Source of the DNA: Bifidobacteriaceae bacterium
GTDB taxonomy: Bacteria > Actinomycetota > Actinomycetes > Actinomycetales > WQXJ01
Assembly: GCA_031272565.1 (NCBI GenBank)
Contig: JAISTN010000103.1
Span: 1 to 16,799, forward strand
Length of the DNA: 16,799 bases
Reading direction: 5' to 3'
In this document: positions 1,949 through 10,532 of the stretch, piece by piece
How positions within the stretch are numbered: position 1 is the stretch's first letter
Layout of the letters: every line of letters begins with the position of its first letter
Translations under genes and position numbers: made by a program
Notes under the pieces: model-generated
Database searches by the model: none
Told to the model about the DNA's origin: nothing
Seen by the model: only the letters and a program-made list of their open reading frames with translations

Positions 1949-3592
1949 CTATTGCTCCAGCCAGGCCTCGGTCAGCATGTAGTTGCCGGTGGGCAGCACG
2001 CTGAAGTTGTGCAGCTTGGTGGTGTAGCTGTAGACGGCCGGCGAATAGAACAACGTCGACACGGGCTGGTCGTCGTTGAAGATCGTCTGGATCTGGTCAT
2101 ACAGCGCCTTGCGTTGCGCCTGGTCGTTGATGGTCGCGGCCTCATCGGCCAGGGCCACCAACTCGTCCGAGTGGTACCAGGAATACATGGCGTTGTAACC
2201 ACCATCCACGTCACCAATGAACCGGATCATCTGGTCTGGGTCGATGATGTCGGTGGTGCAATACAGGATCACCATGTCGTAGTTCTTGGATGCCAGTACG
2301 TCATAGAGGGCGCCTCCGTCAACCTGGTCGATCTGCAGCTCAATCCCGATGGCGGCGAAGTTTTCTTGCAGCACCTGGGCCACCGTCATCTCGTTGGGGG
2401 CGCCGGATTCGACAATCACGCTGAGCGTGCCGCCATCGGCCATGGAGGACTGGGCCAACTCCTCCTTGGCCTTCTCCACGTCATAGGTGATGGCGTCCAG
2501 TTCGGCGTAGTGCCCCCACAGGGCCGGGTTGATGTAGGCCGTGCCGGGCGTGCCATAGCCGTACAGGACGGCATCGTTCAGGGCCTCGCGGTCGATGGCG
2601 TAACCCAACGCCCGGCGCAGGTGGACGTCATCGGTCGGTGACCGGGTGACGTTGTAGGCCAGGAAGTCGGTCCGGGAAGAGTTGAACGCGGTGGCGGTCA
2701 GGTCAGACGAACTGGCCAGCCCGTCCAGGCTGGAATAGGCCGGGAACTCGTTGATGTGGGCGTCGCCGGACTGCAACTGCAGGGCCCGGTTGTTTTCCTC
2801 CGGCACGGTGCGGAAGGTGACCGAATCCAGGTAGGGCAGGCCTTCGCGCCAGTAATTGGGGTTCCGGACCAGCTTCAGCTCGTTGCCCTTGTCCCAGGAT
2901 TCGAACATGAACGGGCCGGTGCCGATGGGATGATCACCAAACTCCTCGGCCGTCTTGCCGCCGTAATCCTTGGGGATCACACCGTTGGAGAAAATGGCCG
3001 CATCCGAAGGCAGCGGCGACCAGGGCTGGGCGGTGGTGATGACCACCGTCAGGTCATCCGGTGCCTCCACCGACACGATGGCGTCGTTGACAAAGCCGAA
3101 GGGTGTCTCCGGGTCAGAGGCCGTCTCGATTGAGAACTTGGCGTCCGCCGCCGTCACCGGGGTGCCGTCGTGGAAGGTCAAGCCTTCACGCAGGTGGAAG
3201 GTCCACACCGTGGCATCATCGTTCGACTCGTAGCTTTCCGCCAGCAGCGGCTCCAACGACTTGCCGTCCGCCGATGGCGCCAGCAGCGGTTCGTAGATCA
3301 ACTCGTCGATCCAGATGTCACGGTTGAGGGGCGAACCGGTGGGCAACAGCGTGGTGGCGTCGCCTTCCCGCACCATCACCAGGTCGCCACCGTATTGGCC
3401 CTCGCCGGCCGCGGTCTCGCCGCCGGTTTCGCCCCCGTCTCCGCCGGTCTCGGTGGGGCCGGCCGCGGTGGTCTCCCCGGTGGTGGTGGACTCAGCATCA
3501 GTCTTGTCGTCGCTGCCGCCGCAGCCGGTCAGTAGTAGGGCCAGGGCGGTGGCGGCCGCTCCCAGGGTGGTGATGTGCCGGGTCTTGCGCAT
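1949..3592 (-). CDS. ABC transporter solute-binding lipoprotein, family 5 (peptide/nickel type)
   Basis: A 547-residue extracytoplasmic binding protein (SBP_bac_5, DppA/OppA-like) that would deliver substrate to the permease pair encoded just upstream. The N-terminus has a basic start (MRKTRH), a hydrophobic segment and a lipobox LLTG-C24, so it should be lipid-anchored. Residues about 25-67 are a Thr/Gly/Glu-rich flexible linker. The family signature lies at about 129-154: VWTFHLREGLTFHDGTPVTA followed by ADAKFS. Length is normal for the family. The ATG at 3592 has AAAGGA about 7 nt upstream, overlapping the stop of the preceding ATPase gene 14 nt away, so it belongs to the same transcript. 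Cargo cannot be read from the sequence; an oligopeptide or amide is likeliest because of the serine hydrolase that follows. Confidence 0.9.
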   Translation of the reverse strand: MRKTRHITTLGAAATALALLLTGCGGSDDKTDAESTTTGETTAAGPTETGGDGGETGGETAAGEGQYGGDLVMVREGDATTLLPTGSPLNRDIWIDELIYEPLLAPSADGKSLEPLLAESYESNDDATVWTFHLREGLTFHDGTPVTAADAKFSIETASDPETPFGFVNDAIVSVEAPDDLTVVITTAQPWSPLPSDAAIFSNGVIPKDYGGKTAEEFGDHPIGTGPFMFESWDKGNELKLVRNPNYWREGLPYLDSVTFRTVPEENNRALQLQSGDAHINEFPAYSSLDGLASSSDLTATAFNSSRTDFLAYNVTRSPTDDVHLRRALGYAIDREALNDAVLYGYGTPGTAYINPALWGHYAELDAITYDVEKAKEELAQSSMADGGTLSVIVESGAPNEMTVAQVLQENFAAIGIELQIDQVDGGALYDVLASKNYDMVILYCTTDIIDPDQMIRFIGDVDGGYNAMYSWYHSDELVALADEAATINDQAQRKALYDQIQTIFNDDQPVSTLFYSPAVYSYTTKLHNFSVLPTGNYMLTEAWLEQ

Positions 3593-7978: not shown

Positions 7979-8902
7979 GTGACCGAGTTCAGCCCGGTCT
8001 TCGCCGAACGGGCGAAGACCACCAAGAAGCCCCTGCGCAAGCGCCTGACCCGGGCCGCCGGCTGGGCCGGCTTTGTCGGTGGCGGGCTGGTGACGCCCCG
8101 CTTGGCCGCCAAGACGGCGGCCAAGCTGTGGTGCAAGCTGCCCCAGAACGCCGGTCGGCGCAAAGACAACCGGCCGCAACCGGGCGAAATCGTGCATCAG
8201 GATGTCGGTCTGCTCAGTCCGCTGGCTGTCGAAACCTGGGGCGATCCGGCGGGCCGCCTGGTTTACCTGGTGCACGGCTGGGGCGGCTGGCGCGGCCAGG
8301 TCGCCTCGTTTGTGACACCGCTGGTGGCGGACGGTTTCCGGGTGATCGCCTTCGACTGCCTGTCCCACGGCGATTCCGGCCCCGGGGAACACGGCAAGGC
8401 TTACTCCTCTGGCGGCGAGATGATCACTTCGCTGGAAGCGGTGGTGGCCCACTACGGCCAGCCGTTTGGGATCATCGCCCACTCGCTGGGGTGTGCCAAT
8501 GTCTGCCGGGCCATCCTGGACGGCAAGCTGACCGTGGAGCGGTTGACTTTGGTGTCGCCCAGCCCGGACATGCGCCTGGTGGCGGCCAATTTCGCCAAGT
8601 CGCTCGGTTTTGGCAAGCGAGCCACCCGTATGCTGACGGAAGAGATGGAACAGTGGGCCCACCGCCGGATGGGCGATTTCGACATCGCCGACATGGGCCG
8701 GACGGGCCGGTTGCCCGGTGACGCCCTGCTGATCCACGACGCGGTTGACAAGGAGTCCCCGTACGCCGTGTCACTGGGCATCAATGCAGCCTGGGCCGGC
8801 ACCAAGCTGATGACTACCGAAGGCTTGGGTCATCACCGCATCCTGATCGATCCGGAAGTGGTCGCGGCGGCCGTGGCCAACCTGTCGCTGTCCACATGGT
8901 GA
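7979..8902 (+). CDS. Alpha/beta-fold hydrolase
   Basis: A 307-residue soluble alpha/beta hydrolase. The core begins near residue 84 with the oxyanion motif VYLVHGWGG (HG at 99-100), followed by FDCLSHGDSG (125-134). The nucleophile elbow is AHSLG with S169, so the first Gly of GxSxG is Ala, a common variant. The acid is probably D254 or D257 in LIHDAVDKESP and the base H285 or H286 in GLGHHRIL. The first 80 residues are basic and Ala-rich and are not part of the catalytic core. The GTG at 7979 has GAAGGG nine bases upstream. It is a lone plus-strand gene between two non-coding regions, divergent from the transporter operon. A weak -10-like TACCCT is at 7902-7907. Substrate unknown; esterase or lipase-like activity is the reasonable guess. 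Confidence 0.85.
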   Translation: MTEFSPVFAERAKTTKKPLRKRLTRAAGWAGFVGGGLVTPRLAAKTAAKLWCKLPQNAGRRKDNRPQPGEIVHQDVGLLSPLAVETWGDPAGRLVYLVHGWGGWRGQVASFVTPLVADGFRVIAFDCLSHGDSGPGEHGKAYSSGGEMITSLEAVVAHYGQPFGIIAHSLGCANVCRAILDGKLTVERLTLVSPSPDMRLVAANFAKSLGFGKRATRMLTEEMEQWAHRRMGDFDIADMGRTGRLPGDALLIHDAVDKESPYAVSLGINAAWAGTKLMTTEGLGHHRILIDPEVVAAAVANLSLSTW

Positions 8903-8968
8903 GCCACGTCACTTTTTCGCTCCCATCCGGGTCCTTGGGCAACACGCCGCGCCGACCTGGGCCTTTAG

Positions 8969-9130
8969 TCATCCACAGGCCGCCAACTGCGAAACTTCTC
9001 CTCAAGAAAGACGTTTTCGCAGGTCAGAGGCTTGCGATGGCTTATCCCCAGGGTTTGTCCACAGGCGGCCCCAACTTTTCCACATGTTGCCTTGCGCCTG
9101 TCCCACACCTGTGTAAAGACCTGTGGATAA
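8969..9130. other. DnaA-box cluster, candidate replication-origin or DnaA-binding locus
   Basis: Five 9-mers match TTATCCACA with at most one mismatch within 162 bp of non-coding DNA. They are TCATCCACA (8969-8977), TTATCCCCA (9042-9050), TTGTCCACA (9055-9063), TTTTCCACA (9076-9084) and, on the minus strand, a perfect TTATCCACA (9122-9130). Three are packed into 43 bp. TTGTCCACA is a form preferred by DnaA of high-GC actinobacteria. Full actinobacterial origins usually hold more boxes and lie beside dnaA/dnaN, neither of which is in the window, and no clear AT-rich unwinding element is seen. A titration or reactivation locus is therefore as possible as an origin. Confidence 0.6.
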
Positions 9131-9136
9131 CTCAAT

Positions 9137-9164
9137 TTGCGCTCTGGGCGGACAGGCTTATACT
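9137..9164 (+). promoter_or_regulatory. Possible weak rightward promoter
   Basis: TTGCGC (9137-9142), a 16-nt spacer and TATACT (9159-9164). The -10 is good (5/6), the -35 poor (3/6). No convincing reading frame follows on the plus strand. The TATA core is shared with the better leftward promoter. Confidence 0.25.
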
Positions 9165-9173
9165 GGTCCGCCC
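9146..9173. repeat. Palindrome surrounding the TATA core
   Basis: Perfect 8-bp arms GGGCGGAC (9146-9153) and GTCCGCCC (9166-9173) enclose a 12-nt centre that contains the shared -10 elements. It could be an operator for a dimeric repressor, or a hairpin at the 5' end of the leftward transcript, whose start is predicted near 9150. Confidence 0.55.
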
Positions 9174-9185
9174 ATGTGATCCCAA
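9157..9185 (-). promoter_or_regulatory. Leftward sigma-70-type promoter reading into the DnaA-box cluster
   Basis: On the minus strand, -35 TTGGGA (9180-9185), a 17-nt spacer and -10 TATAAG (9157-9162) match the vegetative consensus at 4/6 and 5/6. Transcription from near 9150 would cross all five DnaA boxes and then run antisense to the end of the alpha/beta hydrolase gene. No gene on that strand is served until the transporter operon 1.6 kb away. Confidence 0.5.
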
Positions 9186-9190
9186 TCACA
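9175..9190. promoter_or_regulatory. Perfect CRP/GlxR-family binding site
   Basis: TGTGA-TCCCAA-TCACA matches the CRP/GlxR consensus TGTGA-N6-TCACA exactly, with no mismatch in either half. Read on the minus strand its six-base centre is TTGGGA, the -35 of the leftward promoter, so a bound regulator would be expected to block RNA polymerase there. GlxR is the CRP-type regulator of corynebacteria; which homologue exists here is unknown. Confidence 0.6.
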
Positions 9191-9441
9191 CGCCCCAGGG
9201 GGTGCCCGCCAAACCCGCCACCAACCCCCGCGGAGAGACTTCCAGCAGTCCACCAGCCCCCAGGCATCCAAGCCAAGCCATCACCTGATGTCCGATGTCG
9301 CCCAGCCCGGCCGCACCTGACACAAGACGCCCGGGGCCGCCGACAAACCGGCCAAACCCGTCCAGCCACCATCGACGGCCACCGGTTAAACACGAAGGGC
9401 CCACCACCCAGCCGGGCAGCGGACCCATTGTCGCTGTACTC
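9191..9441. other. Non-coding stretch with no recognised feature
   Basis: About 250 nt of strongly C-rich plus-strand sequence with many CCA/CCC runs. Reading frames crossing it have no sensible composition, start or ribosome site. I see no RNA gene, terminator or operator in it. An untranslated or structured RNA cannot be excluded. Confidence 0.4.
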
Positions 9442-9458
9442 CCAAGGGTTCCCCTTGG
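9442..9458 (-). terminator. Compact hairpin downstream of tRNA-Leu and its repeats
   Basis: CCAAGGG (9442-9448) and CCCTTGG (9452-9458) form a perfect 7-bp stem with a 3-nt loop. Read leftward it follows tRNA-Leu and both repeat copies, so it could end the tRNA transcript as a T-less terminator. No T tract is present on either strand. Confidence 0.35.
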
Positions 9459-9597
9459 TCAACCACTTCCTTGGCCTCGGCAGTGCGAGCAAGCTCCCAC
9501 TGCGCTCAGCCTGCGTCGTTGTGTTCCCGGTGGTCAACCACTTCCTTGGCCTCGGCAGTGCGAGCAAGCTCCCACTGCGCTCAGCCTGCGTCGTTGT
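9448..9597. repeat. Tandem 75-bp repeat, two copies, abutting tRNA-Leu
   Basis: Copy 1 (9448-9522) and copy 2 (9523-9597) are directly adjacent and differ only at 9454/9529 and 9455/9530. The strictly identical block is 68 bp (9456-9523 and 9531-9598). Each copy holds a near-perfect hairpin, GCAGTG-C-GAGC-AA-GCTC-C-CACTGC, and the right copy also GTGG-TCAA-CCAC. Copy 2 ends on the discriminator base of tRNA-Leu, so the unit sits immediately after the mature tRNA 3' end. It may be a dispersed repeat family of this genome or a duplicated tRNA trailer. Confidence 0.85.
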
Positions 9598-9680
9598 GCG
9601 CGAGGGGGGAGTTGAACCCCCATGCCCTTGCGGGCACACGGACCTGAACCGTGCGCGTCTGCCTATTCCGCCACTCGCGC
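9597..9680 (-). tRNA. tRNA-Leu (anticodon CAG)
   Basis: An 84-nt type II tRNA read leftward. The acceptor arms GCGCGAG and CTCGCGC pair perfectly, with discriminator A. The D-arm follows TGGCGGAATAGGCAGACGCG. The anticodon arm is CACGG-TTCAGGT-CCGTG, giving anticodon CAG. A long variable arm (GCCCGCAAGGGC) and a T-arm with GGGGGTTCAACTCCCCC complete it. Leucine is supported by the class II arm and the A discriminator. The 3' CCA is not encoded (CAA follows). A tRNA-Leu beside fhaA in opposite orientation matches the conserved actinobacterial arrangement, which supports both assignments. Confidence 0.95.
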
Positions 9681-9812: not shown

Positions 9813-10532
9813 ATGGCATTCCTCGATCGTTTTGAGAGAGGCGTAGAGCGTGCGGTCAACGGCGCCTTCGCCAAAGCGTCTCGTAGTGAGGTGAAACCTG
9901 TGGAACTGGCTTCCGCGCTCCGGCGCGAACTCGACGACAAGGCTGCCGTGCTGGCGCGCGGCCGCGCCGTGGTACCCAACGAGTTCGTCATCGAACTGTC
10001 CCCGGACGACTTCGACCGGATCCTTGACTGGGGAGCCGAGGCCATGGGCGAAGAGCTGCAAGAAGGCGTGGCCCAACACGCCGCCTCGCAACGCTATGCC
10101 TTTGTGGGCCCGGTGTCGGTGACCTTTGAGGAAGACCCGGACTTGGACGTGGGCGTCTTCCACGTCCGTTCAGCGACGGTCCGGGGTGCCGTGGCGCCAG
10201 CCGCTTCCTCCACACCCTCATCCCGCCACCCCATTGTCGACATCGACGGCCAGCGTTACCTGCTGACCGGCCCGGTGACGGTGATCGGGCGGGGTTCGGA
10301 CGCGGACATCATCGTGGAAGACACCGGGGTGTCACGCCGCCACGTGGAAATCCGCCTGACCCCCGATGGCCCGGTGGCCACGGACCTGGGTTCCACCAAC
10401 GGCACCTTCGTGGAAGGGCACCGCATCACGAACGCGCTGCTCGTGGACGGCAACACCATCACGGTGGGCCGGACCCAAGTGATCTTCTGGACAGGCGAAT
10501 CAGGAGACATCGGCACTGACCAGGACGGCTAG
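9813..10532 (+). CDS. fhaA: FhaA: DUF3662 and FHA domain protein
   Basis: A 239-residue cytoplasmic phosphothreonine-binding protein. Residues about 1-120 are the FhaA-type DUF3662 domain (MAFLDRFERGVERAVNGAFA; KPVELASALRREL; VPNEFVIELS). A short Ala/Ser-rich linker follows, then a C-terminal FHA domain from about 140, with G159-R160, S174-RR-H177 and N196-G197, the phosphopeptide-contacting positions. In mycobacteria FhaA binds phosphorylated partners in cell-wall synthesis, including the pseudokinase MviN/MurJ. This protein is shorter than mycobacterial FhaA, mainly because the linker is short. The start is the ATG at 9813 with AGGAGG seven bases upstream, preferred over a TTG at 9810. It is the first gene of a six-gene coupled operon; fhaB begins 6 nt after its stop. 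Confidence 0.95.
   Translation: MAFLDRFERGVERAVNGAFAKASRSEVKPVELASALRRELDDKAAVLARGRAVVPNEFVIELSPDDFDRILDWGAEAMGEELQEGVAQHAASQRYAFVGPVSVTFEEDPDLDVGVFHVRSATVRGAVAPAASSTPSSRHPIVDIDGQRYLLTGPVTVIGRGSDADIIVEDTGVSRRHVEIRLTPDGPVATDLGSTNGTFVEGHRITNALLVDGNTITVGRTQVIFWTGESGDIGTDQDG

Follow-up and report, generated by a model that had tools for sequence, protein, structure and literature searches.

A conserved element of DnaA boxes and a partner motif near the probable oriC of an actinomycete family, and its resemblance to clusters upstream of dnaB

Clusters of DnaA boxes away from oriC form a known kind of locus. Those of S. coelicolor were reportedly named H69 and D78 by Smulczyk-Krawczyszyn et al. in 2006, and the oriC-proximal clusters of B. 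subtilis are said to have been treated by Okumura et al. in 2012. In E. coli, the datA locus lies far from oriC. To our knowledge, how actinomycetes stop DnaA from re-firing is poorly known, and we know of no obvious set of datA, IHF and Fis in these bacteria.

The box clusters near oriC of S. coelicolor and B. subtilis are described, in the passages devoted to them, as repressing untimely initiation and are likened there to datA (PMC5742627, PMC4585315). Another account denies the B. subtilis clusters any significant part in initiation, the effect becoming strong only once all six were lost, and reports the binding of IHF and Fis to DARS2 (PMC5295017). Its verdict on the Bacillus clusters is a caution against over-reading any single cluster.

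Anatomy of the DnaA-box cluster

The window, meaning the whole stretch of 16,799 bases analysed here, is contig C246 of genome G000, a 2.275-Mb assembly in 436 contigs with a completeness of 69.5%. The closest FhaA proteins among named records were 86-97% identical (together with one short fragment) and came from bins labelled Bifidobacteriaceae and one labelled Micrococcales; judging from the isolate codes, the source of these records is presumably the termite gut. The family sample consists mostly of metagenome bins. The cluster lies in a non-coding gap with a hydrolase gene on its left and a tRNA-Leu on its right, both pointing inward; gene names without a family match were assigned by eye. 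The features of the gap and its borders are the following.

7979..8902, + strand: alpha/beta hydrolase gene, 3' end facing the element
8969..9133, no strand: whole conserved element of about 165 bp, from the 12-way alignment and a profile search (match of profile R1, 8963-9136)
8969..8977, + strand: DnaA box 1, TCATCCACA (TTATCCACA in most relatives), between-genus identity 0.88
9018..9026, + strand: partner motif CGCAGGTCA, not a box, within the conserved block 9014-9027, between-genus identity 0.69
9042..9050, + strand: DnaA box 2, TTATCCCCA, position not kept in relatives, its 18-bp block 0.34 identical
9055..9063, + strand: DnaA box 3, TTGTCCACA, 37 bp from the partner motif, between-genus identity 0.79
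9076..9084, + strand: DnaA box 4, TTTTCCACA, 21 bp past box 3, between-genus identity 0.82
9110..9118, - strand: weak inverted DnaA box 5, CCTGTGnAAA, at most one mismatch to the box in several relatives and three mismatches here
9122..9130, - strand: DnaA box 6, TTATCCACA, perfect and inverted, between-genus identity of 9120-9132 being 0.76
9137..9164, + strand: promoter-like TTGCGC-N16-TATACT adjoining the element
9596..9680, - strand: tRNA-Leu(CAG), reading toward the element
9813..10532, + strand: fhaA, the synteny anchor used to locate the equivalent place in relatives

The five DnaA 9-mers that the sequence-only reading of this DNA had placed within 8969-9130, one perfect and four with a single mismatch, were all confirmed, and they are the only words within one mismatch of TTATCCACA in the window. 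Since TTGTCCACA is given as the strong box for S. coelicolor and M. tuberculosis in Table 1 of PMC4285127, two of the boxes are perfect by one or the other standard. The weak inverted box at 9110-9118 and the conserved non-box motif at 9018-9026 had been missed in that reading. The box offsets were nearly fixed, at 0, 63-73, 86 and 107 on one strand and at about 141 and 153 on the other. The gap had also been called GC-rich, which it is not by local standards, as 8903-9300 contains 60% GC and the element 55%, both below the 67% of the whole window.

The clustering is far above what genome density and a Markov model predict, in agreement with the earlier judgement that it is very unlikely by chance. 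At the genome density of 106 words in 2,275,137 bp, five such 9-mers within 162 bp would be expected at 1.4e-8 places per genome, and none of 2000 first-order Markov samples of the gap contained even three boxes in 162 bp; a chance cluster was rejected on these two grounds. Shuffling of the whole window gave five words with at most one mismatch, anywhere in it, in 2 of 200 cases. Genome-wide, the one-mismatch word was no commoner than its reversed control (106 vs 133), so that it is the clustering that matters; exact TTRTCCACA occurred 26 times vs 13 for its reversed control. An RNA element was also rejected, the conserved parts being DnaA boxes on both strands and Rfam at gathering score finding no family in the window, tRNA included.

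The partner motif fits neither of the two known sites tried. MtrA sites are described as G-T-n-A-C repeats in the relevant passage of PMC6265350; a C follows GGTCA in 2 of the 12 copies (G015 and G011, by eye), no spaced repeat of the MtrA type was seen by eye at the motif in the alignment, and MtrA was rejected as the partner. IHF was rejected as well, with no match to its consensus (as printed in PMC10950094) at up to two mismatches in 8950-9150, and 5 such matches in the window for 8.4 expected. In the dnaA-dnaN gap of G000, no word within one mismatch of the partner motif was found, and across whole oriC loci the motif was hardly denser than background (0.71 vs 0.62 per kb, reversed control 0.43).

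Other sequences were noticed to the right of the element. A palindrome, TGTGATCCCAATCACA, lies just beside it at 9175-9190 and is only partly kept in G001; by its letters we take it to be CRP/GlxR-like. On the 3' side of tRNA-Leu, 67 bp are directly duplicated (9457-9523 and 9532-9598), accompanied by a GCAGTG...CACTGC hairpin seen by eye; the duplication is absent in G001.

Conservation in the family and distance from oriC

We scanned 19 fhaA contigs of 18 family genomes for box clusters. Nine genomes carried a cluster with nearly equal box spacing 0.7 to 11.5 kb upstream of fhaA, on the side which is origin-distal in G009. The alignment of these nine copies was turned into a sequence-only profile, R1, whose E-values are rough owing to a shortened calibration. 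R1 gave one strong full-length match in 12 of the 18 family genomes (E <= 6.8e-17), including held-out copies in G007 (7.0e-21), G010 (7.0e-18) and G017 (6.8e-17). The search with R1 returned no strong copy in the other six (G002, G003, G005, G006, G008 and G014), among which are all three members of genus g3 and only three genomes less than 80% complete. The nine training copies had been picked by box density, the partner motif not being used, so that box conservation in them is partly selected, and the motif and the three held-out copies form the cleaner evidence. Across many contigs of G013, R1 had 142 matches at E <= 10, those listed mostly covering positions 13-110, and these look like a dispersed repeat of that genome.

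In the 12-way alignment, the identity between genera was 0.76-0.88 for five of the six boxes and 0.69 for the partner motif, compared with 0.28-0.38 for the spacers and 0.34 for the box-2 stretch. The parts that stood out were boxes 1, 3 and 4, the block TTTnCGCAGGTCA and the two inverted boxes that close the element on the right. When G000 was compared with G001 by eye, the element was the best-kept part of the gap besides the tRNA, and most of the rest had diverged even within the genus.

The dnaA gene of G000 is found on contig C116 in what is by eye the usual order, rsmG-jag-yidC-yidD-rnpA-dnaA-dnaN, and between dnaA and dnaN there are five words that match TTATCCACA or TTGTCCACA with at most one mismatch. 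A single 131-kb contig of G009 carries dnaA (41.0-42.4 kb), a crgA-side cluster (57.9), fhaA (70.6-71.3), a further cluster (74.0) and the element (82.7), which makes three clusters on one contig besides oriC. The element is thus about 40 kb from the dnaA-dnaN gap on this contig, the one measured, dnaA being on a separate contig in G000. With dnaA, fhaA and the element in line, this contig bears out the proposal of a second DnaA-box site outside oriC, across the fhaA block from dnaA, and on this distance the element is near oriC in the sense used for the Streptomyces and Bacillus clusters.

GC skew, computed in 4-kb steps, is weak in these genomes. In G007 its sign changed at dnaA itself, in G011 no more than 4 kb from that gene and in G009 over a broad stretch at about 44-56 kb; no clear turn at dnaA was seen in G001. 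On the element-bearing contigs of G001, G009 and G011 there was no lasting skew switch at the element: the skew was near zero on both sides in G001 and positive on both sides in G009 and in G011, where a short, slightly negative dip over the fhaA block ends near the element. The origin most likely lies at dnaA, and the element appears distinct from a functioning oriC elsewhere, the skew being the weak part of this sequence evidence. The sequence-only reading had named a normal oriC combined with unconserved boxes as an outcome that would count against its proposal. Only half of this was observed: the box-rich dnaA-dnaN gap is indeed present, and conserved copies of the element occur in 12 of 18 family genomes.

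Further clusters were encountered downstream of crgA. In the 500 bp that follow this gene (best 30 of 146 loci), 52 boxes were counted vs 7 in reversed controls, a density of 3.47 per kb vs 0.36 in the rest of the same loci, and at least two boxes were present in 15 of the 30 order loci. Judging by these counts, such genomes commonly have several DnaA-box clusters, a trait also reported for B. subtilis. One such cluster lies at about 600-735 of L012 (G000:C268), between crgA and a rhomboid gene, both named by eye, and a string around GGGGATAACTACA was noticed by eye in several crgA-downstream clusters. Elsewhere, L011 (G000:C189) contains at 2973-3009, in a gap between ORFs, an isolated inverted pair of perfect TTATCCACA 19 bp apart, and three f35 bins (L249, L250, L259) have a DnaA-box cluster between convergent genes near 1501-1665, one of these neighbours in L250 resembling a sliding clamp by eye.

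DnaA boxes and the partner motif upstream of dnaB

Outside the family, R1 found matches in 156 of 198 order genomes, mostly weak ones; a full-length match, in G100, sits upstream of dnaB. The surroundings of six R1 loci outside the family comprised dnaB in four cases and oriC in one (G083), L136 being assigned to neither. At class level, 18 loci were examined among those fetched, and 14 were beside dnaB and 4 were not. As evidence for the link with the motif we kept solely the counts that were backed by a control and limited to dnaB upstream regions.

For the order, 30 dnaB loci were taken by protein similarity (best 30 of 97 dnaB genomes), with 600-bp upstream stretches. They contained 108 boxes vs 7 in reversed controls, and exact CGCAGGTCA 7 times vs 0; a box was present in 25 of the 30, and none in four f7 genomes and G084. 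The class set was drawn from the best 30 of 60 genomes, of which 28 were used (the other two being already in the order set) and 4 dropped for having less than 300 bp upstream. Its 24 loci gave 62 boxes vs 5 in reversed controls and 9 exact motifs vs 0. Clusters with CGCAGGTCA upstream of dnaB were seen class-wide (L218-L247, L267-L293, G000:C206).

In the element itself, the distance from the motif to the box is 37 bp in 8 of the 12 copies. A box on the same strand 37-38 bp after the motif was found in 11 of 54 dnaB loci, belonging to 6 of 30 families, where the mean 2-bp bin holds 0.28 families; this bin ties with 81-82 as the commonest, at 6 families each. Within the order set, the +37 spacing was confined to three f6 loci among the 30. 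Among the 8 class-set loci at +37/38, G447 was the chosen centre and had been found by R1 and three more are of its genus. G158 and G145, among the loci compared for spacing, were picked by R1, and a set of 14 dnaB loci was chosen via R1, for which reason the +37 spacing of these 14 is not independent. The 37-38 spacing was absent from 43 of the 54 dnaB loci, and none of the 16 dnaB loci in the family to which the window belongs showed it. These 16 carry the exact motif in 6 cases, on the opposite strand, and at least two boxes of their own in 13, a count made without control. Several large-genome bins have further dnaB-upstream boxes at +82, +103 and, inverted, +117, outside the R1 grid.

The window element therefore resembles a kindred element, seen upstream of dnaB in parts of the class, but stands on its own. 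The likeness may stem from copying or from separate assembly.

Candidate roles and known counterparts

Binding of DnaA to the element is very likely. We lean slightly to the reading that the element is a stand-alone chromosomal DnaA control site near oriC and not at it, and, with about the same slight preference, that its main effect would be negative control of initiation. DnaA would bind the boxes cooperatively, helped by a putative protein on CGCAGGTCA, to give a compact complex whose shape the partner protein would set. Because the site would be copied soon after initiation, its doubling could withdraw DnaA or help to inactivate it, and re-initiation would be restrained.

Transcription control is an unlikely alternative, in which DnaA would act as an operator or road-block for the promoter-like site at 9137-9164 or for read-through from the hydrolase and tRNA-Leu genes. 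Promoter-like hexamers do adjoin box 6, G001 has a similar string, and both genes face the element here; for E. coli, a passage of PMC10950094 moreover reports that transcription of a tRNA operon reads through into datA. Across the 12 aligned copies, however, the promoter-like site is not conserved, and tRNA-Leu is within 1.5 kb of only 4 of the 12 copies, which makes the read-through into datA at most a local parallel. On the left, 10 of the 12 copies adjoin the 3' end of a gene for a hydrolase (5) or an epimerase (5), the other two being at contig ends; in G004, G009 and G012 this gene was missed by the gene filter and taken from a separate neighbour inspection. The right neighbour varies among the 12 copies and no conserved gene starts at the element. 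With the same left 3' end and a varying right gene, the element is not the promoter of a conserved gene, and this role was rejected for the family, though the promoter-like site shared with G001 may still be one. The element is a piece of DNA that stands free, at the corresponding place in relatives.

A DARS-like reactivation site is a little less probable still. An ordered complex with the partner protein would then promote the release of ADP, yield ATP-DnaA and stimulate initiation. Nearly fixed boxes, opposed boxes and a partner site would suit such a function, as would the presence of several such clusters per genome. Against it, a site about 40 kb from oriC (in G009) would be doubled early, which we infer to be of little use to a reactivator, and the Streptomyces and Bacillus clusters are reported, in the passages that deal with them, as repressing (PMC5742627, PMC4585315).

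It is improbable that the element is a displaced or inert copy of the class-wide DnaA/partner element upstream of dnaB, kept mainly through DnaA binding and having no effect on initiation. Such a copy would share the 37-38 bp spacing with some dnaB loci, as the element does, and would be consistent with the dnaB location of the full-length match in G100. It would hardly retain boxes and motif between genera while the spacers diverge, and the own-family dnaB loci already have boxes of their own (at least two in 13 of 16) and the exact motif (6 of 16).

That the origin moved from dnaA to the element, as the sequence-only reading had entertained, is scarcely credible. It was rejected mainly because of the five boxes between dnaA and dnaN, GC skew being the weaker ground: the skew turns at dnaA itself in G007 and no more than 4 kb away in G011, makes no turn at the element in G001 and G009, and in G011 has positive values on either side of the element once the fhaA block is passed. 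In favour of a moved origin, the ABC operon (left) and the fhaA block (right) run away from the element in the window, G001 shows no clear turn at dnaA, and in G011 slightly negative skew gives way to positive skew near the element.

Returning to the control site near oriC, we tentatively put forward a wider proposal, which as a whole we consider less probable than not by a clear step. Actinomycetes might carry a dedicated DnaA control element made of boxes and a putative partner-protein site at fixed spacings, with its class-wide seat upstream of dnaB, the gene of the replicative helicase. The second, free-standing copy near oriC in the termite-gut family would then be its own counterpart of datA/DARS, and the partner might be what actinobacteria use in DnaA regulation in place of IHF/Fis, a counterpart so far missing. 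A compact element with a precise motif, common to a free-standing site and to dnaB upstream regions across the class, could serve as bait for the partner protein and offers a site that could be deleted or given in extra copies in laboratory streptomycetes or corynebacteria.

What seems to be new is the composite architecture, which is conserved, and its tie to dnaB. A search of the open-licence PMC literature, a scope that leaves subscription papers outside and falls short of proof of novelty, found no description of the element or of the motif upstream of dnaB. Like the element, the clusters of S. coelicolor comprise several DnaA boxes in a short stretch outside but close to oriC of an actinomycete; compared by description only, a partner motif and a fixed spacing are features of the element that do not figure in the passages describing those clusters. 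B. subtilis has several clusters around oriC, according to the accounts of them, as G009 has three besides its oriC, and differs in that the partner motif with its kept spacing is a feature of the element here. The E. coli loci DARS1 and DARS2 are DnaA-binding loci outside oriC, which is also predicted for the element. datA of E. coli combines boxes with a site for a second protein and is intergenic, downstream of a tRNA operon, as stated in a passage of PMC10950094; here too a tRNA-Leu faces the element, whereas datA has an IHF site between its boxes and 8950-9150 is without an IHF consensus. The dnaB-upstream clusters of Actinomycetes have the partner motif in common with the element and, at 11 of 54 loci, also the box 37-38 bp after it, some of them having in addition boxes at +82, +103 and +117 (inverted) that the window element lacks.
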